The notes beneath the pieces are model-generated. The model saw only the letters and a program-made list of their open reading frames with translations, made no database searches and was not told where the DNA came from. This document shows, piece by piece, positions 11,891-25,580 of a stretch of 64,000 nucleotides of DNA; position 1 is the first letter of the stretch; every line of letters begins with the position of its first letter. Source of the DNA: Streptomyces alboflavus (GTDB lineage Bacteria > Actinomycetota > Actinomycetes > Streptomycetales > Streptomycetaceae); contig NZ_JNXT01000002.1 in the NCBI RefSeq assembly GCF_000716675.1, positions 62,001 to 126,000 of the forward strand. The letters are read 5' to 3'. Position numbers and translations under genes: made by a program.

Positions 11891-12069
11891 GCCGATGAGT
11901 GGCGGGCGTGAGCCCGATGGAAGGCGGGGCGAGGGCGGATGCGAGACGGAAGCCGAGTGCGGTCGGCGGCGGGGGAGCCGGTGCCGGTGTCGCCGCCGGG
12001 GTCGAGGCAGGGGCCGCCGCCGCTGTCGGCGCCGAGGTCCGGCACGACGCCGACGTCGGGAGACCCCTC

Positions 12070-13134
12070 ATGACCGCCTCCCCGATCGTGCTCGGCATCG
12101 AGTCCTCCTGCGACGAGACCGGCGCGGGACTCGTCCGGGACGGGCGCCTGCTCGGGCACGCCATCGCGTCGAGCATGGACGAGCACGCCCGCTACGGCGG
12201 CGTCGTCCCCGAGATCGCCGCCCGCGCCCACGTGCACGCGCTGACCCCCGTCGTCCGCCGCGCCCTGGACACGGCGGGCCTCGGCCTCGGCGACATCGGC
12301 GCGGTCGCCGTGACCACGGGCCCCGGCCTCTCCGGCGCCCTCCAGGTCGGCCTCGCCGGGGCGAAGTCCCTCGCCTACGCCCTGGACGTACCGCTGTACG
12401 GAGTGCACCACCTCGCCGGGCACGTCGCCGCCGACACCCTGGAGCACGGCCCGCTGCCCGACCCCTGCGTCGTCCTGATCGTCTCCGGCGGCCACACCTC
12501 GCTCCTGCTCGTCCGGGACCTGGCCCGCGACCCGATCGCCCACCTCGGCGACACCCTGGACGACGCGGCGGGCGAGTGCTTCGACAAGGTCGCCCGTGTC
12601 TTCGGGCTGCCCTACCCGGGCGGGCCCGCCGTCGACCGGGCGGCACGCGACGGCTCGGCGCGGGCCGTGGCCTTCCCGCGCCCCTTGACAGGCCCCGGCG
12701 ACGACCCGTACGCCTTCTCCTTCTCCGGCCTCAAGACCGCCGCCGCGCGCTGGGCCGAGGGCCACGCGGACGGCGAACTGCCGGTCGCCGACGGCGCCGC
12801 CGCGCTCCAGGAGGCCATCGCCGACGTCCTGACCCGCAAGGCGGTCGCGGCCTGCGCCGCACACGGCGTGGACACCCTCGTCGTGGTCGGCGGTGTCGCC
12901 GCCAACTCCCGGGTGCGGGCCCTCGCCGAGGAGCGCTGCCGGGAGGCCGGGATCACCCTGCGCGTCCCGCCGCTCGGCCTGTGCACCGACAACGGCGCGA
13001 TGATCGCCGCCGTCGGGGACCTGCTGGTGCGCGCGGGCGCCGAACCGGCTCCCCTGGACGTGTCGATCGACCCGTCGGCACCGCTGGAGTCCGCGGCGCT
13101 GCACCCCACGGCGAGGATCGCGAGGGCCGCCTGA
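12070..13134 (+). CDS. tsaD: TsaD-like tRNA N6-threonylcarbamoyltransferase subunit
   Basis: 354 aa from the ATG at 12070 with GGGAG upstream; the 57-residue upstream extension is not protein-like. The ASKHA/KEOPS transferase fold is complete: [14 protein letters not shown] at the N-terminus, the metal ligands H114 and H118 in VHHLAGH, the phosphate loop [12 protein letters not shown], and the C-terminal [10 protein letters not shown] and [11 protein letters not shown]. TsaD moves threonylcarbamoyl from TC-AMP to A37 of ANN-decoding tRNAs, with TsaB and TsaE. Neither tsaB nor tsaE is here; in Streptomyces the usual copy sits with them elsewhere, so this is probably a second copy. The GNAT gene overlaps its stop. 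Confidence 0.9.
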
Positions 13135-13709
13135 TGGCCGACGTCCTGGTCCGCCGCCTGTCGGCCCCCGACCTGCTCACCCACCGCGGGGGCATCCGGC
13201 AGGTCTACGCCGAGGCCTTCGCCGAGCCGCCGTGGCACGCCGACCCCGCGGAGGCGGACGTCTACCTGGAACGCCTCGCGGGCGACACCGGCCGCCCCGG
13301 CTTCACCGGCGCGGTGGCCCTCGACGGCGACCGCGTGCTCGGCTTCGCCACCGCCTGGACGTCCGAGACCCCACTGCCCGCCACGCGCTCCTACCCGCGC
13401 GTCAGCGCCGCCCTCGGTGCCGAGCGCACCGCCGCGTGGCTGTGCGGCGGCCTGGAGGTCGACGAACTCGCCGTCACGCCCGGCGCGCACGGCCGCGGCC
13501 TCGGCCGTACGCTCCTCGAAGCGGTCACGCGCGACGCGCCCGCCGGGCGCTGCTGGCTGCTCACGTCCGTCAAGGCCGACGCGACCGTCCGCTTCTACGA
13601 ACGGCTCGGCTGGCGACAGGTCACCCACCCCGCGCCGAACGGATACGGCACGGCCGTCTTCCTCGGCCCGCGCCACCCCGCGCGCCCCGACACCTTCCCG
13701 CCCCCGTAG
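13134..13709 (+). CDS. GNAT-family N-acetyltransferase
   Basis: 191 aa; its ATG shares one base with the TsaD stop (TGATG). The acetyl-CoA loop is VTPGAHGRGLGRTLLEAV, and the C-terminal FYERLGWRQV is the usual final GNAT element. The protein is longer than RimI and lacks its start pattern, so RimI identity is doubtful even though rimI often neighbours tsaD. It lies between TsaD and the alanyl-tRNA synthetase, which suggests a target in translation or an aminoacyl compound. The substrate cannot be read from sequence. Confidence 0.85.
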   Translation: MADVLVRRLSAPDLLTHRGGIRQVYAEAFAEPPWHADPAEADVYLERLAGDTGRPGFTGAVALDGDRVLGFATAWTSETPLPATRSYPRVSAALGAERTAAWLCGGLEVDELAVTPGAHGRGLGRTLLEAVTRDAPAGRCWLLTSVKADATVRFYERLGWRQVTHPAPNGYGTAVFLGPRHPARPDTFPPP

Positions 13710-13762
13710 CCCCCGACAACCCACCGTCTCTGTAGCCCCTTGAGCCCCGCCCGGAGCACCCC

Positions 13763-16423
13763 TTGCGCACCGCCGACATCCGCACCCGCTTCCTGGACTT
13801 CTTCGCCGAACGCGGCCACACGGTCGTCCCCAGCGCCCCGCTGCCGACGCCCGACCCGACGCTGCTCTTCGTCAACGCGGGCATGGTGCCGTTCAAGCCC
13901 TACCTCACCGGCGAGGTGGCACCGCCGTGGCCGCGCGCGACCAGCGTGCAGAAGTGCGTGCGCACCCTCGACATCGAGGAGGTCGGCAAGACCACGCGGC
14001 ACGGCTCCTTCTTCCAGATGAACGGCAACTTCTCCTTCGGCGACTACTTCAAGGAAGAGGCCATCACCTTCGCCTGGGACCTGAGCACCCGCTCCGTCGC
14101 GGACGGCGGCTACGGTCTGGACCCGGCGAGGATCTGGGTGACCGTGCACCACTCCGACGACGAGTCGCGCGGCCTGTGGCGGCGCGTCGCCGACCTGCCC
14201 GACGAGCGGATCGTGGCACGCGGCGACGAGGACAACTTCTGGTCCATGGGCGTACCCGGACCGTGCGGCCCCTGCTCGGAGCTGTACTACGACCGTGGCC
14301 CCGCGCTCGGCCGCGCGGGCGGCCCGGCCGTCGACGAGGACCGGTACATGGAGTTCTGGAACCTCGTCTTCATGCAGTACGAACGCGGGGAGGGCACCGG
14401 CAAGTCCGGCTACCCGATCCTCGGCGAACTGCCTCGCCGCAACATCGACACCGGCATGGGCCTGGAGCGCATGGCCACCTTGCTCCAAGGTGTCGACAAC
14501 CTCTACGAGATCGACGAGACCCGCCCCGTCCTGGACCGCGCCGCCGAACTCGCAGGCGTGCGCTACGGCGCCGACGCCACCGACGACGTCCGCCTGCGTG
14601 TCGTCGCCGACCACGTCCGCACCGCCCTCATGCTCCTCACCGACGGCACCGCCCCCGGCAACGAGGGCCGCGGCTACGTGCTGCGCCGCATCCTGCGCCG
14701 CGCGGTCCGCTCCATGCGTCAACTCGGTTACGAGGACCCGGCGTTGACGCAGCTCCTCGCCGTCGCCCGGGACTGCATGGCCCCGAGCTACCCCGACGTC
14801 GCCGAGGCCTACGACCGCGTCGCCGACCAGGCAGCGGGGGAGGAGGACGCCTTCCGCGCCACCCTCAAGCAGGGCACGACCGTCCTGGACACGGCCGTCA
14901 CCAAGGCCAAGGCGGAGGGCGCGCGCCAACTGCCGGGCGCCCAGGCCTTCCTGCTGCACGACACGTACGGCTTCCCCATCGACCTCACCCTGGAGATGGC
15001 CGCCGAGCAGGGCGTGGAGGTCGACCGCGAGGGCTTCACGGCGCTCATGCGCGAGCAGCGCGAGCGGGCCCGCGCGGACGCCCGCGCCCGCAAGTCCGGC
15101 GGAGCGGTGGACACATCGGCCCTGCGCGCCGTCCTCACCGAGCACGGCCCGACGGACTGGCGCGCCTGGGACACCCTGACCACCGAGTCCCGCGTCCTCG
15201 CCCTCCTCGGCCCCGCGGGCCCCGTGCCCGTGGCCCGCGACGGCGAGATCGTCACCGCCGTCCTGGACCGCACGCCGTTCTACGCCGAGTCCGGCGGCCA
15301 GGACAGCGACGCGGGACAGCTCTCGGGCGCCTCCGTGGAGGCCGACGTGCTCGACGTGCAGCGCCCGCTGCCCGGACTCGTCGCGCACCAGGTCCGCGTC
15401 ACCGCGGGCGAACTGGCCGTCGGCGACGCCGTGCACGCCGCCGTCGACCCCGAGTGGCGCCTCGGCGCCCGCCAGGCCCACTCCGGCACCCACGTCCTGC
15501 ACGCCGCCCTGCGCGAGGTCCTCGGCCCCACCGCCCTGCAGTCCGGCTCCTACAATCGCCCCGGTTATCTGCGCCTGGACTTCCCCTGGCGCGGCGGGCT
15601 CTCCGCCACCGTCCGCAGCGAGGTCGAGGAGGCCGCCAACCGCGCGCTCCGCCGTGACCTGCCCGTCGGCGTGCGCTGGATGACGCTGCCCGAGGCCAAG
15701 GAGCTCGGCGCGCTCGCCCTGTTCGACGAGACGTACGGCGAGCAGGTGCGGGTCGTCGAGATCGGCGGCGCCTGGTCGCGCGAGCTGTGCGGCGGCACGC
15801 ACGTCGAGCACGCCGCGCAGGTCGGTGTCGTCGCGTTGACCGCCGAGTCGTCCGTCGGCGCGGGCATGCGGCGTCTGGAGGCCGCCGTCGGGATCGAGGG
15901 GTTCGCCCATCTGGCGCGCGAGCGCGACCTCGTCGCCCGCATCGCCGAGCAGGTGCAGGCACCGCGCGCCGAACTGCCCGAACGCATCGCCGGACTCCTC
16001 GACCGGCTCAAGGCCGCCGACCGGGAGAACCAGCGGCTGCGGCAGGCGGCCCTCGCCGTCCGCGCGGGCGAACTGGCGGACCGGGCGGTCGACGTGGCGG
16101 GCGCGAACGTCGTCACCGCCACCGTGGACGGCGACGCCGGGGCCGCCCGCACCCTTGCCCTGGACGTCCGAGGGCGGCTGCCCGGTGAGCGCCCGGGCGT
16201 GGCCGCCGTGGCGCTCACCGCCGACAAGCCCGTGCTCGTCGTCGCCGTGAACAAGGCCGGGCGTGCGGCGGGACTGTCCGCGTCCGCGCTGGTCAAGCGG
16301 CTGCTCGGCGGGCGGGGTGGGGGCTCGGACGAGGTGGCGCAGGGCGGCGGGGCGAGTGCGGCCGACCTCGCGTCCGCGCTGGCGGGTCTTGCCGGGGTCG
16401 TACGCGCCGAACTGGGGGCGTGA
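13763..16423 (+). CDS. alaS: Full-length alanyl-tRNA synthetase (probable second copy)
   Basis: 886 aa with a TTG start at 13763 (CGGAG 8 nt upstream). All modules are present: a class II core (FVNAGMVPFKPYL, TSVQKCVRTLDIEEVGKTTR, NGNFSFGDYFKEEAI), the tRNA-binding region, an editing domain with zinc ligands H573/H577 (HSGTH) and C676/H680 (CGGTH), and the C-Ala domain. The usual actinobacterial core reads MCGNFSFGDYF; here it is MNGNFSFGDYF. The housekeeping alaS of Streptomyces normally lies beside ruvX/mltG/aro genes, which are absent here. A paralogue for self-resistance or stress is therefore likely. Alternatively this is the only copy, relocated. Confidence 0.93.
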   Translation: MRTADIRTRFLDFFAERGHTVVPSAPLPTPDPTLLFVNAGMVPFKPYLTGEVAPPWPRATSVQKCVRTLDIEEVGKTTRHGSFFQMNGNFSFGDYFKEEAITFAWDLSTRSVADGGYGLDPARIWVTVHHSDDESRGLWRRVADLPDERIVARGDEDNFWSMGVPGPCGPCSELYYDRGPALGRAGGPAVDEDRYMEFWNLVFMQYERGEGTGKSGYPILGELPRRNIDTGMGLERMATLLQGVDNLYEIDETRPVLDRAAELAGVRYGADATDDVRLRVVADHVRTALMLLTDGTAPGNEGRGYVLRRILRRAVRSMRQLGYEDPALTQLLAVARDCMAPSYPDVAEAYDRVADQAAGEEDAFRATLKQGTTVLDTAVTKAKAEGARQLPGAQAFLLHDTYGFPIDLTLEMAAEQGVEVDREGFTALMREQRERARADARARKSGGAVDTSALRAVLTEHGPTDWRAWDTLTTESRVLALLGPAGPVPVARDGEIVTAVLDRTPFYAESGGQDSDAGQLSGASVEADVLDVQRPLPGLVAHQVRVTAGELAVGDAVHAAVDPEWRLGARQAHSGTHVLHAALREVLGPTALQSGSYNRPGYLRLDFPWRGGLSATVRSEVEEAANRALRRDLPVGVRWMTLPEAKELGALALFDETYGEQVRVVEIGGAWSRELCGGTHVEHAAQVGVVALTAESSVGAGMRRLEAAVGIEGFAHLARERDLVARIAEQVQAPRAELPERIAGLLDRLKAADRENQRLRQAALAVRAGELADRAVDVAGANVVTATVDGDAGAARTLALDVRGRLPGERPGVAAVALTADKPVLVVAVNKAGRAAGLSASALVKRLLGGRGGGSDEVAQGGGASAADLASALAGLAGVVRAELGA

Positions 16424-16446
16424 CACTCCGCTAGGAGCCGGATAGG

Positions 16447-16471
16447 GGGTTCCCACGGCAAGTGGGAACCC
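16447..16471 (+). terminator. Strong hairpin after alaS
   Basis: A perfect 10-bp stem, GGGTTCCCAC (16447-16456) and GTGGGAACCC (16462-16471), with the 5-nt loop GGCAA, lies 24 nt past the alaS stop. There is no U-tract. It separates the tsaD-GNAT-alaS unit from the riboswitch operon. Confidence 0.75.
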
Positions 16472-16479
16472 GTCCGCTG

Positions 16480-16507
16480 TGGACTTACTAGGAAGTCCAA
16501 GTATATG
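16480..16507 (+). promoter_or_regulatory. Promoter with overlapping dyad before the cobalamin riboswitch
   Basis: TGGACT (16480-16485) and TATATG (16502-16507) are spaced 16 bp, a plausible -35/-10 pair. A dyad, TGGACTT (16480-16486) and AAGTCCA (16493-16499), covers the -35 and spacer. This position suits a repressor, so the operon may be controlled both at initiation (dyad) and by the riboswitch. Confidence 0.5.
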
Positions 16508-16514
16508 TTCGTGA

Positions 16515-16676
16515 CGAAGCCCGCGGTGCAGGGAAGCCGGTGTGAATCCGGCGCGGTCCCGCCACTGTGACCGGGGAGTGCGTTCTCGCGTGAGACAACG
16601 CCACTGACGGAGAAGTCCGTCGGGAAGGCGGAGAACGGGCGCTGATCCGGGAGTCAGGATACCGGCCGTGGGGTGT
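16515..16676 (+). promoter_or_regulatory. Cobalamin (B12) riboswitch
   Basis: The conserved core is easily read: GGGAAGCCGGTGTGAATCCG (16531-16550), then the B12 box GCCACTG at 16561-16567. A second GCCACTG is at 16600, followed by GGGAAGG (16622-16628) and the 3' segment GATCCGGGAGTCAGGATACC (16644-16663). This is the adenosylcobalamin aptamer on the plus strand. No cobalamin biosynthesis, cobalt transport, metE or nrd gene follows. The next annotated genes are the valine/isobutyryl-CoA operon starting at 16898, so that operon is the likely target. Confidence 0.93.
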
Positions 16677-16694
16677 TCCGTGTTGTCCACGAGG

Positions 16695-16775
16695 ATGGAG
16701 CAGACACGCATGGCCCCGGTGCGCACCCACGACCCTGGTGATCCGGCGATGCGAGCGACAACCCCCGCTGTCTGA
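16695..16775 (+). CDS. Short ORF (26 aa) between riboswitch and mmsA
   Basis: An ATG at 16695, or in the same frame at 16710 (which has GGAG 9 nt upstream), opens a 26- or 21-codon frame ending at the TGA 16773-16775. The peptide begins MEQTRMAPVRTHDP. Its stop codon touches a hairpin (16775-16790). It may be a leader peptide or a chance frame; it has no recognised family. Confidence 0.3.
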   Translation: MEQTRMAPVRTHDPGDPAMRATTPAV

Positions 16776-16790
16776 CGGCCCTTTGGCCGT
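16775..16790 (+). terminator. Hairpin in the mmsA leader
   Basis: ACGGCC (16775-16780) pairs with GGCCGT (16785-16790) around the loop CTTT. It sits 100 nt after the aptamer and 107 nt before mmsA. It is a candidate attenuator or expression-platform element; there is no U-tract. Confidence 0.35.
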
Positions 16791-16897
16791 TCGCGTCCCT
16801 CTGTCCGACCGTCACTCCGGCATGCCCGCGCACGCCGCCGACGGCCGGCCGGGCGCGCCCGTCCTCGGATCCCCACCTGACGAAAGAGCAGGCTCCC

Positions 16898-18397
16898 ATG
16901 GTCCGTGAACTGACCCACTTCATCGGCGGCAAGCACATCCCGGGAACTTCGGGCGCGCAGGCCGACGTGTACGACCCGAACACCGGCGAGATACAGGCCC
17001 GCGTCCCGCTCGCGAACCGCGCGGAGACCGAGGCCGCCATCGCCGACGCGGCCGAGGCGCAGCGCGAGTGGGGCGAGTGGAACCCGCAGCGCCGCGCCCG
17101 CGTCCTGATGCGGTTCCTGCGGATCGTCGAGGGCGAACGCGAGTCGCTGGCCCGCCTCTTGTCGGCCGAGCACGGCAAGACCGTCGCCGACGCGCACGGC
17201 GACCTGCAGCGCGGCCTCGAGGTCGTGGAGTTCGCCGCGGGCATCCCGCACCTGCTCAAGGGCGAGTTCACCGACAACGCCGGAACCGGCATCGACGTGC
17301 ACTCGCTGCGCCGCCCCATCGGCGTCGTCGCCGGCATCACGCCGTTCAACTTCCCCGCGATGATCCCTCTGTGGAAGGCCGCGCCCGCCATCGCCTGCGG
17401 CAACTCCTTCATCCTCAAGCCCTCCGAGCGCGACCCGTCCGTCCCGCTGCGCCTCGCCGAGCTCTTCCTGGAGGCGGGCCTGCCGCCGGGCGTCCTGAAC
17501 GTCGTCAACGGCGGCAAGGAAACCGTCGACACCCTCCTGGAGGACCCCCGCGTCGAGGCCCTCGGCTTCGTCGGCTCCACGCCGATCGCCGCGCACATCT
17601 ACGCCACCGCCGCCGCCCACGGCAAGCGCGCCCAGTGCTTCGGCGGCGCCAAGAACCACATGATCGTGATGCCGGACGCGGACCTCGACCAGGCCGTGGA
17701 CGCTCTGATCGGCGCCGGCTACGGCTCCGCGGGCGAGCGCTGCATGGCGATCTCCGTGGCCGTGCCCGTCGGCGAGTCCACCGCCGACGCCCTGGTGGCC
17801 CGCCTCAAGGACCGCATCGGCGCGCTGCGCATCGGCCGCTCCGACGACCCCGAGGCCGACTTCGGCCCCCTCGTCAGCCGCGACGCCCTCGACCGCGTCC
17901 GCTCCTACGTCGACCTCGGCGTCGAAGAGGGCGCCGAACTCGTGGTCGATGGCCGTGACTTCACCCTCCCCGGGCACGAGGGCGGCTTCTTCGCGGGCGC
18001 CTCGCTCTTCGACCGCGTCACCCCGGACATGCGGATCTACCAGGAGGAGATCTTCGGCCCGGTCCTGTCCGTGGTCCGCGCCGCCGACTACGAAGAGGCG
18101 CTGCGGCTGCCCAGCGAGCACCCCTACGGCAACGGCGTCGCGCTCTTCACCCGCGACGGCGACACCGCACGCGACTTCACCCGCCGCGTCGACACCGGCA
18201 TGGTCGGCGTCAACGTCCCCATCCCGGTCCCCGTCGCGTACCACACCTTCGGCGGCTGGAAGCGCTCCGGCTTCGGCGACCTCAACCAGCACGGTCCTGA
18301 CTCCATCCGCTTCTACACCCGCACCAAGACCGTCACCTCGCGCTGGCCCTCCGGGGCCAAGGAAGGCGCGAGCTTCACCATCCCGACGATGCGGTGA
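16898..18397 (+). CDS. mmsA: CoA-acylating methylmalonate-semialdehyde dehydrogenase
   Basis: 499 aa. The aldehyde dehydrogenase fold has GITPFNFPAMIPLWK (147-160), the NAD-binding GFVGSTPIA, and the catalytic Cys282 in GSAGERCMAISVAVPVG; RCMA is characteristic of the MmsA branch. It oxidises (S)-methylmalonate semialdehyde with CoA to propionyl-CoA, the last step of valine breakdown. It is the first gene of a five-gene operon behind a cobalamin riboswitch, and its stop overlaps the next start (GTGA). Its product feeds propionyl-CoA to B12-dependent methylmalonyl-CoA mutase, which is encoded elsewhere. The ribosome site is weak. Confidence 0.94.
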   Translation: MVRELTHFIGGKHIPGTSGAQADVYDPNTGEIQARVPLANRAETEAAIADAAEAQREWGEWNPQRRARVLMRFLRIVEGERESLARLLSAEHGKTVADAHGDLQRGLEVVEFAAGIPHLLKGEFTDNAGTGIDVHSLRRPIGVVAGITPFNFPAMIPLWKAAPAIACGNSFILKPSERDPSVPLRLAELFLEAGLPPGVLNVVNGGKETVDTLLEDPRVEALGFVGSTPIAAHIYATAAAHGKRAQCFGGAKNHMIVMPDADLDQAVDALIGAGYGSAGERCMAISVAVPVGESTADALVARLKDRIGALRIGRSDDPEADFGPLVSRDALDRVRSYVDLGVEEGAELVVDGRDFTLPGHEGGFFAGASLFDRVTPDMRIYQEEIFGPVLSVVRAADYEEALRLPSEHPYGNGVALFTRDGDTARDFTRRVDTGMVGVNVPIPVPVAYHTFGGWKRSGFGDLNQHGPDSIRFYTRTKTVTSRWPSGAKEGASFTIPTMR

Positions 18398-19551
18398 CCG
18401 CCATGACCAGCTCACTGCTCACCGAGGACCAGCTCGCCATCGTCGAGACCACCCTCGACTTCGCCCAGGAACACCTCGCCCCGCACGCCCTCGCCTGGGA
18501 CCAGGAGAAGCACTTCCCGGTGGAGGTGCTGCGCAAGGCCGCCGACCTCGGCCTCGGCGGGATGTACGTCGCCGAGGACGTGGGCGGCTCCGGGCTCACC
18601 CGCGCCGACGGCGTCCTCGTCTTCGAGGCCCTCGCCTCCGGCTGCCCGTCCATCGCGGGCTACCTCTCCATCCACAACATGGTCGCCTGGATGATCGACC
18701 GGTACGGCGACGAGGCCCAGCGCGCCCGCTGGCTCGGGTCGCTCACGTCCATGGACTGGCTCGGCAGCTACTGCCTCACCGAGCCCGGCGCGGGCTCCGA
18801 CGCCGCCGCGCTCAGCACCCGCGCCGAACGCGACGGCGACGCCTATGTCCTGACCGGCGTCAAGCAGTTCATCTCCGGCGCCGGCGCCGCGCACGTGTAC
18901 ATCGTGATGGCCCGCACCGGCGACAGCGGCCCCGGCGGCGTCTCCGCGTTCGTCGTCGAGCGCGACGACCCCGGCCTGTCCTTCGGCCCGAACGAGCAGA
19001 AGATGGGCTGGAACGCCCAGCCCACCCGGCAGGTGATCCTCGACGGGGTGCGGCTGTCCGCCGACCGGCTGCTCGGTGGCGAGGGCAACGGCTTCCGCAT
19101 CGCCATGAACGGCCTCAACGGCGGCCGCCTCGGCATCGCCGCCTGCTCCCTCGGCGGCGCCCGCAGCGCCCTCGACCGCAGCCTCGGCTACCTCGCCGAC
19201 CGCGAGGCGTTCGGGGCCAGGCTCCTGGACGCGCAGGCGCTCCAGTTCAAGCTCGCCGACATGGCGACCGAGCTGACCGCGGCCCGCGCCCTGGTCCGCC
19301 AGGCCGCCCAGGCCCTCGACGCGGGCGACCCGCAGGCACCCCAACTGTGCGCCATGGCCAAGCAGTTCGCCACCGACACCGGCCACTCGGTCGCCGACCG
19401 CGCCCTGCAACTGCACGGCGGCTACGGCTACCTGACCGAGTACGGCATCGAGAAGCTCGTGCGCGACCTGCGCGTCCACCGCATCCTGGAAGGAACCAAC
19501 GAGATCATGCGCCTGATCGTCGCCCGCGGCCTGACGGGGGCGCTGCGATGA
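18394..19551 (+). CDS. Acyl-CoA dehydrogenase, isobutyryl-CoA dehydrogenase type
   Basis: 385 aa from the GTG at 18394, which overlaps the mmsA stop; an ATG at 18403 is an alternative. It is a short-chain acyl-CoA dehydrogenase: N-terminal helical domain, YCLTEPGAGSDAAAL (FAD/substrate beta-domain), and the C-terminal LQLHGGYGYLTEYGIEK and LEGTNEIMR. Glu366 in LEGTNE is the probable catalytic base. It forms methacrylyl-CoA from isobutyryl-CoA, passing electrons to ETF. It is coupled to the genes on both sides. Context makes isobutyryl-CoA the likely substrate, though 2-methylbutyryl-CoA is also possible. Confidence 0.92.
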   Translation: MTAMTSSLLTEDQLAIVETTLDFAQEHLAPHALAWDQEKHFPVEVLRKAADLGLGGMYVAEDVGGSGLTRADGVLVFEALASGCPSIAGYLSIHNMVAWMIDRYGDEAQRARWLGSLTSMDWLGSYCLTEPGAGSDAAALSTRAERDGDAYVLTGVKQFISGAGAAHVYIVMARTGDSGPGGVSAFVVERDDPGLSFGPNEQKMGWNAQPTRQVILDGVRLSADRLLGGEGNGFRIAMNGLNGGRLGIAACSLGGARSALDRSLGYLADREAFGARLLDAQALQFKLADMATELTAARALVRQAAQALDAGDPQAPQLCAMAKQFATDTGHSVADRALQLHGGYGYLTEYGIEKLVRDLRVHRILEGTNEIMRLIVARGLTGALR

Positions 19552-20645
19552 CGCCCACCGCCGCCGCGGACCCGGCGCCCGCCGACGACTCCGTACTGCT
19601 GCGCACCGAAGGCCGCGCCGCCTACATCGTCCTCAACCGGCCCCGCGCCCTGAACGCCCTCACCCACGCCATGGTCCGCCGCATCGACCAGGCCCTCGCC
19701 GCCTGGGAGCACGACCCGGCCGTGGAGACCGTCGTGCTCACCGGCGCCGGAGAGCGCGGCCTGTGCGCGGGCGGCGACATCCGCGCCATCTACGACGACG
19801 CCCGCACCGGCGGCAGCGCCTCCGCGGACTTCTGGCGCGACGAGTACCACCTCAACGCCCGCATCGCGCGCTACCCGAAGCCGTACGTCGCCGTGATGGA
19901 CGGCATCGTCATGGGCGGCGGCGTCGGCGTCTCCGCGCACGGCGGCGTCCGCGTCGTCACCGAGCGCTCCCGGATCGCCATGCCCGAGACGGGCATCGGC
20001 TTCGTCCCCGACGTCGGCGGCACCTATCTGCTCGGCCTCGCGCCCGGCGAACTCGGCACCCATCTGGCCCTGACAGGACAGCAGCTGGGCGCCCGCGACG
20101 CGCTCCTGTGCGGGCTCGCCGACCACTTCGTCCCCTCCGACCAGCTGCCGCGCCTCGTCGCGGACCTCGCCTCCGATCCGGTGCGCGAGGTCCTCGCCCG
20201 GTACGTCGCCGAGGCGCCGCCCGGCGTCCTCGGCGAGCAGCGCGCGTGGATCGACGCCTGCTACACGGCGCACGGCGTCGAGGAGATCGTCGACCGGCTG
20301 CAGAACCACGGCGCGCAGGCCGCCAAGGAGGCCGCTGAGACCCTGCACACCAAGTCGCCGACCGCCCTGAAGGTCACGCTCTCCTCGCTGCGCCGGGCCC
20401 GGCAGCTCGGCCCGCTGGAGCGGGTCCTCGAGCAGGAGTACCGGGTGTCGTGCGCGGCCCTCGCCTCCGCCGACCTCGTGGAGGGCATCCGCGCCCAGGT
20501 CGTCGACAAGGACCGCGACCCCCGCTGGTCCCCGGCCGGCCTCGCCGACGTCACCGACGACGACGTGGCCCGCTACTTCGCCCCGCTCGGCGCGCGCGAA
20601 CTCGCCCTCGCCGCCGACCGCTCCCCGCAGGAGGTGCCCTGGTGA
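19548..20645 (+). CDS. 3-hydroxyisobutyryl-CoA hydrolase (enoyl-CoA hydratase superfamily)
   Basis: 365 aa, ATG at 19548 overlapping the upstream stop by 4 nt. The crotonase fold has the oxyanion loop LCAGGDIRAIY and VMDGIVMGGGVGVSAHG, then PETGIGFVPDVGGTYLL with the catalytic Glu and Asp. The 365-aa length and the long C-terminal domain with EYRVSCAALASADLVEGIRA are those of HIBCH hydrolases rather than hydratases. It releases 3-hydroxyisobutyrate from its CoA ester, the step before mmsB. Its stop overlaps the mmsB GTG. Confidence 0.9.
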   Translation: MTPTAAADPAPADDSVLLRTEGRAAYIVLNRPRALNALTHAMVRRIDQALAAWEHDPAVETVVLTGAGERGLCAGGDIRAIYDDARTGGSASADFWRDEYHLNARIARYPKPYVAVMDGIVMGGGVGVSAHGGVRVVTERSRIAMPETGIGFVPDVGGTYLLGLAPGELGTHLALTGQQLGARDALLCGLADHFVPSDQLPRLVADLASDPVREVLARYVAEAPPGVLGEQRAWIDACYTAHGVEEIVDRLQNHGAQAAKEAAETLHTKSPTALKVTLSSLRRARQLGPLERVLEQEYRVSCAALASADLVEGIRAQVVDKDRDPRWSPAGLADVTDDDVARYFAPLGARELALAADRSPQEVPW

Positions 20646-21571
20646 GCCCCGTCATCGCCTTCGTCGGCCTCGGCCACATGGGCGGCCCGATGGCCGCCAA
20701 CCTCGTCAAGGCCGGACACCGGGTCGTCGGCCACGACCTGGTCCCGGACGCCGTGGACGCCGCCGTCGCCGCGGGCGTCGAGGCCGCCCCCTCGGCCGTG
20801 GCGGCGGCCGCCGACGCGGACGTCGTGGTCACCATGCTGCCCGCGGGCCGCCACGTCCTCGCCCTCTACCAGGACGAGGGACTGCTCGCCGCCGCCCGGC
20901 CCGGCACCCTCTTCGTCGACTGCTCCACGATCGACGTCGCCGACGCGCGGGCCGCCCACGAAGCGGCCGTGGCCGCCGGACACCTCGCCGTGGACGCCCC
21001 CGTCTCCGGCGGCGTCATGGGCGCGGAGGCGGGCACGCTCACGTTCATGGTCGGCGGTGACGAGGCCGCGTTCGCGCGGGCCGAGCCGCTGCTCGCCGCG
21101 ATGGGCAAGAAGGCCGTGCACTGCGGCGCGGCGGGCGCCGGACAGGCCGCGAAGATCTGCAACAACATGATCCTCGGCGTCTCCATGATCGCCGTCAGTG
21201 AGGCCTTCGTCCTCGGCGAGAGCCTCGGCCTCTCCCATCAGGCGCTGTACGACGTGGCGTCCACCGCGTCCGGCCAGTGCTGGGCGCTGAGCGTCAACTG
21301 CCCCGTGCCGGGACCGGTCCCGGGCTCGCCCGCCAACCGCGACTACCTCCCGGGCTTCGCCGCACCCCTCATGGCCAAGGACCTCGGCCTCGCCGCGAAC
21401 GCCGTGCGCGCGGGCGGCGTCGACGCCGAACTGGGCCTGCGCGCCGCCGAGCTGTACGCCGCCTTCGCCGAGGGCGGGGGAGCGGCGGAGGACTTCTCCG
21501 GGATCGTCCGGGCCATCAGAGAGCGCTCCGGACCGCAACTCGCCGACGACCAGAGGAACCAGCGATCATGA
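20642..21571 (+). CDS. mmsB: 3-hydroxyisobutyrate dehydrogenase
   Basis: 309 aa from the GTG at 20642, with CAGGAGGTG upstream inside the preceding gene. The NAD-binding motif is [12 protein letters not shown], the substrate motif [22 protein letters not shown], and the catalytic Lys171 sits in KICNNMILG. It oxidises 3-hydroxyisobutyrate to methylmalonate semialdehyde, the MmsA substrate. Both ends overlap neighbouring genes by 4 nt, so the pathway enzymes should be made together. Confidence 0.94.
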
Positions 21572-22383
21572 CCGACCCCACGGCCACCACGGACTCCACG
21601 GCCACCACGGACTCGTACGAGACGATCCTCGTGGAGCGCAAGGGCAGGGTGGCCATCCTCACCCTCAACCGCCCCAAGGCCCTGAACGCCCTGAACCTCC
21701 AGGTCATGCGGGAGGTCGTCGCCGCGGCCGAGGCTCTCGACCGGGACCCGGAGGTCGGCTGCATCGTCCTCACCGGCTCCGCGAAGGCGTTCGCCGCGGG
21801 CGCCGACATCAAGGAGATGAGCCCGCAGAACTACCTGGACATGTACCTGAGCGACTGGTTCACGGCCTGGGACCGACTCGGCCAGGTGCGCACCCCGACG
21901 CTCGCCGCCGTCTCCGGTTACGCCCTCGGCGGCGGCTGCGAGCTGGCCATGCTCTGCGACATCCTGCTCGCCGCCGACACGGCGGTCTTCGGCCAGCCGG
22001 AGATCAAGCTGGGCGTCATCCCCGGCATCGGCGGCTCGCAGCGCCTGACCCGCGCCGTCGGCAAGGCCAAGGCCATGGAGCTGTGTCTGACCGGCCGCAC
22101 CATGGACGCGGAGGAGGCCGAGCGCGCCGGGCTCGTCTCCCGGGTCGTCCCCGCCGACGACCTGCTCGGCGAGGCGCTGAGCGTCGCCGAGACGGTGGCG
22201 GGGATGTCGCTGCCGGTCGCCATGATGGCCAAGGAGTCGGTCAACCGCTCCTTCGAGACGACCCTCACCGAAGGCGTCCGCTTCGAACGGCGCCTCTTCC
22301 ACGCGGTGTTCGCGACGGCGGACCAGAAGGAGGGCATGACCGCGTTCACGGAGAAGCGCAAGCCGCACTTCACCCACCGGTAG
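21568..22383 (+). CDS. Enoyl-CoA hydratase (methacrylyl-CoA hydratase)
   Basis: 271 aa, ATG at 21568 overlapping the mmsB stop. A Thr/Ser-rich N-terminal tail ([15 protein letters not shown]) precedes a complete crotonase fold: [10 protein letters not shown] (oxyanion hole), [13 protein letters not shown] and [15 protein letters not shown] with both catalytic Glu positions. In this operon it would hydrate methacrylyl-CoA to 3-hydroxyisobutyryl-CoA, which completes the isobutyryl-CoA to propionyl-CoA route. It is the last gene; a hairpin follows. Confidence 0.93.
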
Positions 22384-22449: not shown

Positions 22450-25400
22450 TCAGCGCACGTACGCGTTGAGCGGCGACACTCCGTCGAGGTCGACCTGGAG
22501 CCCGTGCAGCGCCTTGGAGTACAGGTACGTGCGCATCGGCACGTACACGGGCACCGCCGCTGCCTGCTCCATCACCCGGCGGTCCACCGTCGACCACAGC
22601 TCGCCCGCGTCGCGCAGCGACCCCGCCGAACCGGCCGCGTCGATCGCCGAGTCGACGCCGGAGTTCTTCAGGCGCGAGTAGTTCGACGACGTGGGGTAGC
22701 TGTACTTGCCGTCGAAGTACTCCGGCAGGGTCGCGGAGCCGACGGGCAGACCGGCGCCCACGGGCAGCCGGAACAGGTCGTACTTCCCCGTGCCCGCGTT
22801 CTTGTAGTAGTCCGTCGTGTCGTCCTTCTGCAACTTGACCTGGAATCCGGCCCGGTCGAGTGCCGCCTTGATCACCTGGGCCCGCTCGGCGTCCGTCGCG
22901 TCCGCGTGCCCGAGGGTGAGCCTGAAGCCGCTCTCGTCCGCGTCCTTGAGCAGCGCACGGGCCTTCGCCGGGTCGCCGTGCTCCCCGGCCCCGTACAGGT
23001 CGAAGGGGCGGGCGCCGCGGACACCGGGCGGCAGCAGGTTGTGATGGACCGTGCCGTCCTCGCCGCTGGCCGCGAGGACGTCCCCCGCAGGCAGGGCCGT
23101 GGCGATGGCCTTGCGGACCTTGACGTCCTTCACCCGGCGGGTGTTGATCTGGTACGCGTGGATGAAGGCCGACGGCGCGGACAGACGCCCCGCGCCGCCG
23201 GCGTTCTTGCCGAGCCCGTCCTTGCCGAGCGAACCGGTGAACGACATCACCGCTTCGCTCGAACCGGCGCTCACCGTACGGGACTTGATGTCCTCGACGG
23301 ACAGCCCGCCCTCGATGCGGTACGTGTCCGGGTAGGCGGTCCGCAGCGGGTCGCTGTCCGCCTTCCACTCGGAGTTGCGGGTCAGGACGACGTCCTTCGC
23401 GCCGGTGAACGTGCTCACCTCGTACGGCCCGGTGGACGGCACCGTCGGCGAGCCCGTGGAGGTGTCCTTCACCCGGTCGGGCACCGGCGCGCCGGAGGGG
23501 CCCGCGAGCGCGACATTGAAGTCCGGCCGGGCGCTCTCCAGATGGAAGACGACCGTGCGGTCGTCGGGTGTCTCGATCGTGCCCGGCGGCAGGGTGCGGT
23601 CGCCGCTGCCGCCGTCCGCAGCCTTGGGGCCGAGCAGCCAGCTGCGCAGGGTCCGGTCGCCGATGGCGAACGACGGGTCGAGCGTGCGCTGGACGGCGTT
23701 CACGAAGTCCTTGGCGAGGACCGGCGTGCCGTCGTTGTACGTGAGGCCGGGCTTGAGCGTGAAGGTCCAGGTCCGGCCGCCCGACGAGGCCCGGCCGCCG
23801 TCGGTGGCCAGGTCGCCGACGAGCTTGACCCTGCCGTCGGGCAGCGTCTTGAGGCCGGTCAGGCTGCGGTGGACCAGGCGGGAGACGAGCCGGTCGGTGC
23901 CCGACCACATCTTGCCGGGGTCGACGGTGGTGAGGTCGGCGGGTTCGAGGACGGTGACCTTGCCGCCCTTGCGGGCCTCCGCGACGGCGGGCGCAGGGCC
24001 CTCGGAGTCGTCCGCCGTGCCCAGGACCAGCGTCTCGGTCTTGGCCCGCTCGGCCACCGTGCTGCCCTTCGGGCCGGGCTTGGGGCGGTCCGACGTGCCC
24101 CCGGACGTCCCCTTCCCCGAGTCGTCCTTGGTGCCGCCGAACGGGTCGGTGACGGTGAGCGTCACGACGAGCGCGGCGACGGCCACGGCCGCGCCGCCCG
24201 GGACCCACCAGGTGCGCCACCACGGCCGCCCGGCGGGTACCTGGCCGTGGTGGGCGACCGGGGCGGGCCACAGCGGGGGCGGGGCGGTCGGTCTGGGCGG
24301 CGGGAGGGGGTAGGAGGTGGGGACGGGCTGCGGTCCGGAGTCGGCTGGGTGCCCGGCCTGCGCCAGGGGCGCCTGGGCCGACGGCGGTGGGCCGAAGGGC
24401 GACGGGGCGGCGGGCGCCGGGTGGGCGGGAGCGGGTGGGGTGGGTGCCGAGGCCGGTGGGGTCGGGGTGCCGGGGTTCGGTGTGCCTGGTGTGCCTGGTG
24501 TGGCGGCGCCGGGGCTCGGTGTGCCGGGAGTCGCGGGGGCATGGTTCGGCGTGCCCGTGGCGGGAGCGGCGGAAGCCGGTGCGGCCGGTGCGGCCTTCGT
24601 CAGACCGACGGACGCCTCCTTGGCCCGTGCCTCAAGCTCGCTCCGTGTCCCCTCGGCGTCCGGCCGGTCGGCGGGCGCCTTCGCCAGCATCCGGCCCACC
24701 AGGTCGTCCCAGGCGGGCGAGAGGCCCGGGCGCCGCAGGGAGGGCCGGTCCGGGGTCTCGTACACGTGACAGTGCATCAGCGCGGCCGCCGACGGGGCGT
24801 CGAACGGCGGGGCGCCGGTGAGCATTTCGTGCACCATGCAGCCCAGCGAGTACACATCGGTGCGCCCGTCGGTCTCGCCGTGGGCGAACCGCTCCGGGGC
24901 CATGTAGTGCAGCGTGCCGATGGGCGAGTCGGAGGTGCGGGTGAGATAGCCGCCGGCCCCCGTCGCCGCGTCCAGGAACTTGGCGATGCCGAAGTCGAGG
25001 ACCTTCACGGTGCCCTCGTCGGTGACCATCACGTTGGCGGGCTTGATGTCCCGGTGCACGATGCCGGCCCGGTGCGCCACCGCGAGCGCCCGGCACACCT
25101 GTGCGGCGATGTCCGCGACCCGCTGCGGCGAGAGCCCCTTGCCGTTCCTGAGCAGCTCGGTGACCGTACGGCCGTTCAGGAGCGGCATCACCAGATACGG
25201 ACTGTCGCCCTCCGAACCGTGGTCGAAGACCGGCACGATGTACGTGCTGTCGAGCGCCGCCGCGGCCCGCGCCTCCCGCACGAACAGCGCCAGCATGCGC
25301 TCGCGGTCCGGCGCCGACGTGTCCTGCGGCAGGCCGAGCAGCTTGACGGCCACCTCCCGGTCGAGCCGGGCGTCCCGGGCCCGCCAGACTGCCCCCATGC

Positions 25401-25458
25401 CGCCCGCGCCTATGCGTTCCGTGAGCGTGTACCGCCCGTCAAGGACTGCGCCGCGCAT
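22450..25458 (-). CDS. Transmembrane Ser/Thr kinase fused to a family-5 solute-binding sensor
   Basis: 1002 aa from the ATG at 25458 (GGAG 6 nt upstream); a GTG at 25479 is a weaker start. The kinase domain (about 10-275) is complete: glycine loop GAGGMG, K39, HRDIKPAN with D137, DFG at 155-157, APE at 187-189. A Pro/Ala/Thr-rich linker (about 285-410) leads to one TM helix (about 417-437, VPGGAAVAVAALVVTL). The extracellular part (about 480-1000) is an SBP_bac_5 peptide-binding domain. The protein thus senses a peptide-like ligand outside and phosphorylates Ser/Thr targets inside, in place of the PASTA domains of PknB. No transporter genes are adjacent. Confidence 0.93.
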   Translation of the reverse strand: MRGAVLDGRYTLTERIGAGGMGAVWRARDARLDREVAVKLLGLPQDTSAPDRERMLALFVREARAAAALDSTYIVPVFDHGSEGDSPYLVMPLLNGRTVTELLRNGKGLSPQRVADIAAQVCRALAVAHRAGIVHRDIKPANVMVTDEGTVKVLDFGIAKFLDAATGAGGYLTRTSDSPIGTLHYMAPERFAHGETDGRTDVYSLGCMVHEMLTGAPPFDAPSAAALMHCHVYETPDRPSLRRPGLSPAWDDLVGRMLAKAPADRPDAEGTRSELEARAKEASVGLTKAAPAAPASAAPATGTPNHAPATPGTPSPGAATPGTPGTPNPGTPTPPASAPTPPAPAHPAPAAPSPFGPPPSAQAPLAQAGHPADSGPQPVPTSYPLPPPRPTAPPPLWPAPVAHHGQVPAGRPWWRTWWVPGGAAVAVAALVVTLTVTDPFGGTKDDSGKGTSGGTSDRPKPGPKGSTVAERAKTETLVLGTADDSEGPAPAVAEARKGGKVTVLEPADLTTVDPGKMWSGTDRLVSRLVHRSLTGLKTLPDGRVKLVGDLATDGGRASSGGRTWTFTLKPGLTYNDGTPVLAKDFVNAVQRTLDPSFAIGDRTLRSWLLGPKAADGGSGDRTLPPGTIETPDDRTVVFHLESARPDFNVALAGPSGAPVPDRVKDTSTGSPTVPSTGPYEVSTFTGAKDVVLTRNSEWKADSDPLRTAYPDTYRIEGGLSVEDIKSRTVSAGSSEAVMSFTGSLGKDGLGKNAGGAGRLSAPSAFIHAYQINTRRVKDVKVRKAIATALPAGDVLAASGEDGTVHHNLLPPGVRGARPFDLYGAGEHGDPAKARALLKDADESGFRLTLGHADATDAERAQVIKAALDRAGFQVKLQKDDTTDYYKNAGTGKYDLFRLPVGAGLPVGSATLPEYFDGKYSYPTSSNYSRLKNSGVDSAIDAAGSAGSLRDAGELWSTVDRRVMEQAAAVPVYVPMRTYLYSKALHGLQVDLDGVSPLNAYVR

Positions 25459-25580
25459 CCCCTGCTCCACCCCACCCACCCCGTAGAAACACGCCCGCTG
25501 CGGGCGGCAAGGTCAATTTACCCGTGCCGTGGAGAAGTTGGAGAGGTGTTGTGCCGCGGGCCCCGCCGTCATCGGCGATC

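Follow-up and report, generated by a model that had tools for sequence, protein, structure and literature searches.

Introduction

Why should a cobalamin (vitamin B12) riboswitch stand before an operon of valine-degradation type? The question is raised by a 64-kb stretch of Streptomyces alboflavus DNA (hereafter, the window, meaning the whole stretch analyzed), in which a B12 aptamer precedes mmsA and four further genes of short acyl-CoA metabolism. Roughly one in ten of the Streptomyces genomes compared has the operon together with the aptamer. On balance, we favor an OFF-type cobalamin riboswitch that controls a five-enzyme, B12-independent oxidation of short acyl-CoAs, an alternative of the metE type. 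The route is most likely kept off while B12, and hence the usual B12-dependent route, is available. An earlier note on this DNA, made from its sequence alone, had judged an OFF switch paradoxical here and suggested an ON switch or a hijacked leader. If the operon is a B12-independent alternative, the paradox disappears.

A cobalamin aptamer precedes a second mmsA copy

The aptamer scores 94.5 bits against a cut-off of 31.5 and spans positions 1-189 of the Rfam model RF00174. It is the sole Rfam match at gathering threshold within the window; the genome as a whole carries 13 RF00174 matches, 12 of them above the cut-off. The aptamer and the genes that follow it are:

16507-16684, plus strand: cobalamin riboswitch aptamer (RF00174), full length by cmscan, E 3.1e-22
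16898-18397, plus strand: mmsA, (methyl)malonate-semialdehyde dehydrogenase (CoA-acylating); TIGR01722, 636 bits, cut-off 448.5
18394-19551, plus strand: acdH, acyl-CoA dehydrogenase of isobutyryl-CoA type; Pfam acyl-CoA dehydrogenase domains
19548-20645, plus strand: hibch, 3-hydroxyisobutyryl-CoA hydrolase; PRK05617, 462 bits (cut-off 274); ECH_2, 425 bits
20642-21571, plus strand: hibadh, 3-hydroxyisobutyrate (or 3-hydroxypropionate) dehydrogenase; TIGR01692, 390 bits (cut-off 291.6)
21568-22383, plus strand: ech, enoyl-CoA hydratase, the last gene of the operon; PRK05862, 454 bits (cut-off 396)

Each of the four junctions from mmsA to ech is a 4-nt overlap. The earlier note had read a B12 aptamer at 16515-16676 on the plus strand, which lies inside the RF00174 match, and an mmsA-led, 4-nt-coupled set of valine/isobutyryl-CoA-type genes behind it; the profile matches and the overlaps agree. 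As a set, the five enzymes can take isobutyryl-CoA to propionyl-CoA or, by the same chemistry one carbon shorter, propionyl-CoA to acetyl-CoA.

The mmsA of the operon is a second copy. An mmsA match (E <= 1e-100) is present in 60 of 61 Streptomyces genomes, and the window genome and 10 aptamer-bearing relatives have two matches each. Besides the operon copies and a 75% copy in one genome (G022), these matches are 51-57% identical. Where the riboswitch is intact, the operon mmsA stands beside a housekeeping mmsA. We fetched 16-18 kb around the other mmsA in the window genome (L167) and at three further loci (L168-L170); none of the remaining four genes occurs there, and no aptamer lies near the housekeeping mmsA in any of the four. 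Other hibadh homologues (~40%) are found in 10 of 12 operon genomes and in 42 of 49 genomes without the operon; for other hibch homologues the counts are 7 of 12 and 32 of 49. In the window genome, the other hibch copy and an acyl-CoA mutase gene that includes a B12-binding domain are ~1.2 kb apart (G000:C23:127703-131907), a neighborhood that suggests a B12-dependent counterpart cluster.

The leader and the operon are conserved together

A BLAST search with the leader across the 61 genomes gives strong matches (E < 1e-60) in the window genome and 11 others. MmsA, 88-92% identical, comes right after the leader in 10 of these 11 relatives, and these ten, like the window, keep the five-gene order complete; the eleventh (G012) has an mmsA fragment only. 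Among named Streptomyces mmsA loci, four of five have the aptamer before mmsA (L014-L017, with L016 at 47 bits). At these four, acdH, hibch, and hibadh follow mmsA, and the fetched DNA stops before ech. The fifth (L054) has a 75% mmsA and neither the aptamer nor the other operon genes.

We extended the comparison to 392 genomes, screened for a 28-nt motif of the expression platform (at most 3 mismatches) and for mmsA (E <= 1e-200). The motif occurs at 46 places in 45 genomes, and mmsA occurs in 44. Where mmsA is at least 86% identical, the motif lies upstream of it in 42 of 43 genomes, as against 3 of 348 genomes without an mmsA match. In these 42, the two are on the same strand and 144-230 nt apart, with one at 718 nt; this tight spacing led us to reject a free-standing RNA without a target. 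The association is strong (Fisher test on 42/2/3/345, P = 2e-50, with the 75% copy of G022 counted as a miss and relatedness ignored). The earlier note had suggested comparing the leaders of other Streptomyces for an aptamer next to mmsA and had counted its absence from close relatives as part of a case against the idea; the counts show the leader in nearly all of them.

The departures are few. mmsA without the motif is seen in G010 (89%) and in G022, which has none of the other four genes. The motif without mmsA is seen in G012 and G126, where the leader is kept and the operon is gone or reduced, and in G263, where the match has 3 mismatches and no aptamer is visible by eye. The orphan leaders of G126 (C83, L192) and G012 (C1, L165) retain both the riboswitch and the region of an upstream open reading frame (uORF), with the operon lost or fragmentary. 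An additional motif place (G048:C99) has its own aptamer of 57.5 bits, and two named Streptomyces carry extra cobalamin aptamers near the operon (L015:2346-2566, minus strand; L017:1759-1866, plus strand).

A conserved uORF starts in the expression platform

Three features occupy the leader from the end of the aptamer to mmsA:

16679-16708, plus strand: putative expression-platform hairpin (CGUGU...ACACG) that would hold the uORF Shine-Dalgarno sequence GGAG, proposed from conservation
16710-16775, plus strand: conserved uORF of 21 codons, MAPVRTHDPGDPAMRATTPAV, stop TGA, recognized by conservation of its frame
16776-16897, plus strand: C-rich spacer before mmsA, 122 nt, 46% C and 30% G, a candidate Rho-loading stretch

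The uORF comes directly after the aptamer and reads MAPV(R/C)xHxPGDP..., and an almost invariant stretch carries its Shine-Dalgarno sequence and start. An ATG with an in-frame stop after 14-30 codons is present in 35 of 37 distinct leaders; these were chosen by the start motif, the invariance of which rests on the 392-genome motif search. One exception is the leader of the decayed operon of G012, in which the start is ACG. The other is L182 (G231:C16), the leader that stands 718 nt from mmsA, in which no stop occurs within the 307 nt read. Variation at codon positions 1, 2, and 3 is 0.10, 0.10, and 0.24 (codons 2-9, 33 alignable sequences), the pattern that would be expected of a translated frame, and one leader (L102) has an in-frame 6-nt insertion within the uORF.

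We propose the following ligand response. When B12 is plentiful, the aptamer would close the platform hairpin and hide the ribosome site of the uORF; the C-rich RNA would then stay bare, and transcription would end short of mmsA, probably through the action of Rho. Under B12 shortage, the uORF would be translated and the operon made. Its enzymes would replace the B12-dependent methylmalonyl-CoA and isobutyryl-CoA mutases, which stall without B12, as metE replaces metH. We propose a uORF-Rho mechanism because of precedents in Mycobacterium tuberculosis (PMC11260477, PMC12810186; these and the other articles are cited for the parts of their texts that were available). Like the mmsA leader, the M. 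tuberculosis B12 leaders combine a riboswitch with a short upstream ORF (PMC11260477), and in Mbox Rho termination accompanies a translational platform that acts on a uORF (PMC12810186), as is proposed here. They differ in that the ppe2 uORF runs into its gene at an AUGA overlap and is coupled to that gene (PMC11260477), whereas the mmsA uORF ends ~90-137 nt before mmsA.

A terminator scan of 16380-16920 returned a single terminator-like match, a palindrome at 16480-16499 described below, and no intrinsic terminator between the aptamer and mmsA in the window. The earlier note had allowed for a transcript that ends at 16790. We rejected an intrinsic terminator at that point: the scan does not call the hairpin ending nearby, and no common hairpin is visible by eye in the leaders of 14 relatives. 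C exceeds G in the spacer of all 15 leaders compared, a comparison made within the spacer with no control region. The C excess and the lack of an intrinsic terminator are compatible with, and no more than compatible with, a role for Rho.

Several observations weigh against this mechanism. Minimum-energy folding yields the platform hairpin in 10 of 15 leaders but not in the other 5, and the energy of the hairpin is no better than that of shuffled sequences (z +1.0; 172 of 200 shuffles as good). The platform motif is near-invariant (42 of 46 places exact), too much so for covariation. Open frames are common in this GC-rich DNA, and in most leaders frame +1 runs further without a stop over the uORF stretch. 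The uORF stop lies ~90-137 nt before mmsA in all 15 leaders, so that a shield against Rho would be partial.

The direction of the switch finds a parallel in Streptomyces griseus. There, a term-seq study reported premature termination in the leader before a gene for methylmalonate-semialdehyde dehydrogenase, and its authors ascribe this termination to cobalamin; the premature transcript and low mmsA of exponential phase are relieved in stationary phase (PMC8914203). This profile is OFF-like and, together with the fit of an OFF switch to a B12-independent alternative, speaks against the ON switch of the earlier note, although the inference to B12 in S. griseus rests on growth phase. With an ON switch, B12 would raise the operon, and valine would be used at times when methylmalonyl-CoA mutase is able to finish propionyl-CoA. 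Metabolic logic speaks for it, as does the near-universal presence of such mutases (see below), and it would also allow leader decay in the lone genome without them. It is very unlikely, given the termination that the S. griseus authors attribute to cobalamin and a uORF start within the platform, which suggests OFF. We know of no ON cobalamin riboswitch.

The aptamer could also be an inert or hijacked leader, a passenger without B12 control of mmsA. Ligand control of mmsA is inferred, and we found no direct ligand test, which leaves room for this explanation; yet the promoter-like element, the aptamer, and the uORF are kept in dozens of genomes, and we regard a mere passenger as highly improbable.

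The leader seems to have been inserted behind an old promoter

One further element precedes the aptamer:

16480-16508, plus strand: promoter-like element with a palindromic operator (TGGACT / TTACTAGGAAGTCCAA at 16485-16500 / TATATG), recognized by conservation

This element, TGGACTTACTAGGACGTCCAACTATAT, has 0-6 mismatches to a 34-nt consensus in all 37 distinct Streptomyces leaders. Its promoter role is predicted from this sequence conservation, and a sigma-70 scan did not call it. Of 24 other mmsA loci, 23 have their best match to it at a distance of 20-86 nt ahead of mmsA, and over 25 nt these matches differ from it at 3-10 positions; the weakest of them are unconvincing taken singly. L054 has no usable match (11 mismatches, 486 nt). 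Five of the 24 (L053, L056, L058, L072, and L075) fall outside the Rfam scan, and their short leader leaves no room for an aptamer. When the fetched loci were searched for the operator with up to 6 mismatches, it was found before mmsA-type operons, and otherwise only as reverse-strand readings of the palindrome and a few scattered weak matches. No named regulator was matched to the operator.

The gene order mmsA-acdH-hibch-hibadh is common to many of 80 mmsA loci, among them those of Rhodococcus, Nocardia, Bradyrhizobium, and others; mycobacterial loci have the same order without hibch. One Rfam scan took in 19 of the 80 loci, and only that of Kribbella (L026) has an aptamer, on the opposite strand and facing metE. 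The Rfam coverage consists of these 19 and L014-L017, with the other 57 outside the scan. On the loci scanned, we rejected the riboswitch as a general feature of the actinobacterial mmsA operon. Because the promoter-like element is common to aptamer-less actinobacterial mmsA operons, the leader looks like an insertion that parted an old promoter from mmsA. An MmsA tree of 43 rows groups the 15 aptamer rows with G010 in a single clade (100/100 support) that stands among actinobacterial sequences; the position of G010 within the clade has weak support (85/88).

The leader has decayed in a genome without a mutase match

The model TIGR00641, which covers methylmalonyl-CoA and isobutyryl-CoA mutases, matches in 391 of the 392 genomes (60 of 61 in the smaller set), including that of the window. 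The only genome without a match is G010, and among the 43 genomes in which mmsA is at least 86% identical, G010 alone lacks the leader motif. Its leader is still alignable from promoter to mmsA, with conserved aptamer segments and the platform altered, and cmscan finds no match in it even at E <= 10. Another aptamer of this genome is intact (92.5 bits, C2:405582) and is followed by a metE 70% identical to that of Kribbella over 742 residues; a MetH-sized frame with a B12-binding domain is present as well. Two independent rarities would fall in the same genome with a chance of 1 in 392. This decay is suggestive, and not proof, of a link between the leader and B12-dependent mutases, and it does not tell which mutase matters. 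The earlier note had drawn a connection to B12-dependent acyl-CoA metabolism, rightly in our view.

The case is a single event in a single genome, 93% complete and with masked stretches in the fetched part. In addition, G010 has one mmsA match, that of the operon, and no housekeeping match; its single hibch and single hibadh matches also lie within the operon (G010:C2; L164, L205, L206). The operon may thus be the only valine route of G010, and the switch may have decayed because the operon became the sole mmsA, not because the mutases went.

The substrate may be propionyl-CoA, isobutyryl-CoA, or both

Evidence on the substrate is divided: AcdH points to isobutyryl-CoA and the genome context to propionate. 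In favor of propionyl-CoA, this compound has no mutase outlet without B12, and propionate-type genes lie nearby in several genomes. MmsA enzymes accept malonate semialdehyde (PMC6572756), and a 3-hydroxyisobutyrate dehydrogenase oxidizes 3-hydroxypropionate (PMC3642240). The propionate shunt of Caenorhabditis elegans runs through the same five steps and enzyme classes, parallel to the methylmalonyl-CoA route, and is B12-repressed (PMC4951191). It differs in comprising animal genes under transcriptional control, whereas here there is one operon with an RNA sensor and a candidate substrate.

In G005, the operon borders on an ScfR gene, prpD, and prpC. A cobF lies upstream of the operon in G005 (CobF, 331 bits) and, judged from its start, in G056. 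metE falls inside the fetched 12-kb neighborhood in 5 of 10 aptamer relatives (G005, G015, G019, G051, and G056). A frame reading like an ScfR/RamB regulator is found upstream of the leader, not always adjacent, at six loci (L154, L156, L157, L158, L165, and L014). The two tested with profile hidden Markov models both match (L154: PF09856, 246 bits, and RamB, 670 bits; L156, in G004: RamB, 654 bits), with both RamB scores below the cut-off of 700. A PrpD-family (PF03972) match is present in 7 of the 12 genomes that have the operon, as against 8 of the 49 that do not (P = 0.006, with relatedness left out of account); two of these, tested further, match the PrpD model at 704 (frame cut at the stretch end) and 830, below its cut-off of 950. 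In the window genome, a single stretch on a different contig (G000:C3:318001-350000; L201, L202) holds prpD, prpC, an ScfR gene, and aptamer-bearing metE and nrd genes.

The best solved match of AcdH is 1rx0, acyl-CoA dehydrogenase family member 8 (ACAD8), an isobutyryl-CoA dehydrogenase, at 440 bits; the next scores 296. AcdH is thus by far closest to ACAD8, which counts against a dedicated propionyl-CoA route. Isobutyryl-CoA mutase is known from Streptomyces. The operon might serve valine only, oxidizing isobutyryl-CoA to propionyl-CoA, with an OFF switch that shifts isobutyryl-CoA between the operon and the B12-dependent isobutyryl-CoA mutase, and with propionyl-CoA leaving by the methylcitrate cycle. 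In Cupriavidus necator, an operon with this enzyme set has a proven role in valine use (PMC6572756), which likewise counts against a dedicated propionyl-CoA route. The operator of other actinobacterial mmsA operons is retained, so the old inducer may still matter. The enrichment of PrpD-family matches agrees with valine use alone, as does G010, which lacks the mutases, has lost the switch, and has methylcitrate genes. Against it, 5 of the 12 operon genomes have no PrpD-family match, and extra propionyl-CoA with a stalled methylmalonyl-CoA mutase would be a dead end there. This lack also weighs against our favored explanation. Moreover, the other hibadh and hibch copies of operon genomes mean that valine may be served elsewhere. 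We consider a valine-only operon rather unlikely.

The boldest reading, somewhat less likely than not, is that a single insertion event in Streptomyces placed a B12 riboswitch between mmsA and the old promoter of a valine operon. A duplicate valine operon would thereby have become a pathway from propionyl-CoA to acetyl-CoA for B12 starvation, a bacterial, RNA-controlled counterpart of the C. elegans shunt, and the switch would decay when the B12-dependent mutases are lost. As the selected function, a propionyl-CoA shunt and a bypass of isobutyryl-CoA mutase stand at roughly even odds. Both may run, since one enzyme set acting twice would serve both substrates.

Neighboring genes

Upstream of the leader lies alaS (13763-16423; TIGR00344, 775 bits). 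This complete alaS and a TsaD homologue (TsaD domain, 294 bits) stand close together at 11899-16423, and in L161, too, a TsaD gene precedes the operon. The gap that separates alaS from the promoter-like element of the riboswitch holds a perfect 10-bp inverted repeat, GGGTTCCCAC/GTGGGAACCC (16447-16471), without a T run; it is perhaps where the alaS transcript ends. Beyond the operon, a 1009-aa frame on the minus strand (22450-25479) encodes a protein kinase domain and, after it, a domain of the extracellular solute-binding type (SBP_bac_5).

Relation to known systems

The earlier note knew of no described case. The leader type is already in print for one species with a valine reading: the available text of PMC8914203 reports a cobalamin riboswitch with premature termination at S. 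griseus SGR_RS05925, before methylmalonate-semialdehyde dehydrogenase and downstream valine-degradation genes. That text offers no explanation of the target and no analysis of a uORF, of phylogeny, of a link to mutases, or of a second mmsA copy. Our leaders are likened to it by description, not by sequence. In the open-licence library searched, this was the only article found that joins a cobalamin riboswitch with valine degradation, and none was found that joins the propionate shunt with a B12 riboswitch. The mmsA3 operon of C. necator has the same enzyme set in one cluster; its valine use is proven by knock-outs, and a riboswitch is not mentioned in the available parts of the article (PMC6572756).

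The cobalamin riboswitches of Streptomyces metE and nrd genes, both kinds of which occur in the window genome, likewise place a B12 sensor before a B12-independent alternative. There, the enzyme replaced is methionine synthase or ribonucleotide reductase; here, acyl-CoA mutases would be replaced. The mmsA leader also differs in its uORF platform; by eye, no comparable uORF precedes metE in the window genome. The riboswitch class is ordinary; the case is unusual in its target, conserved, and mechanistically informative. New here are the conserved uORF that starts in the expression platform, the placement of the leader between mmsA and a promoter/operator common to other actinobacterial mmsA operons, and the leader decay in G010, the one genome without a mutase match.

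Conclusions

If our reading is true, the rule that B12 riboswitches shut off B12-independent substitutes covers those of acyl-CoA mutases in addition to those of methionine synthase and ribonucleotide reductase, and a riboswitch previously placed only in valine degradation is explained. The conserved uORF would offer a compact model for riboswitch-uORF control outside mycobacteria, and the decay in G010 would be a natural experiment, repeatable in more genomes. The polyketide precursors of Streptomyces (propionyl-, methylmalonyl-, and butyryl-CoA) pass through these nodes, and cobalt or B12 supply could steer them.

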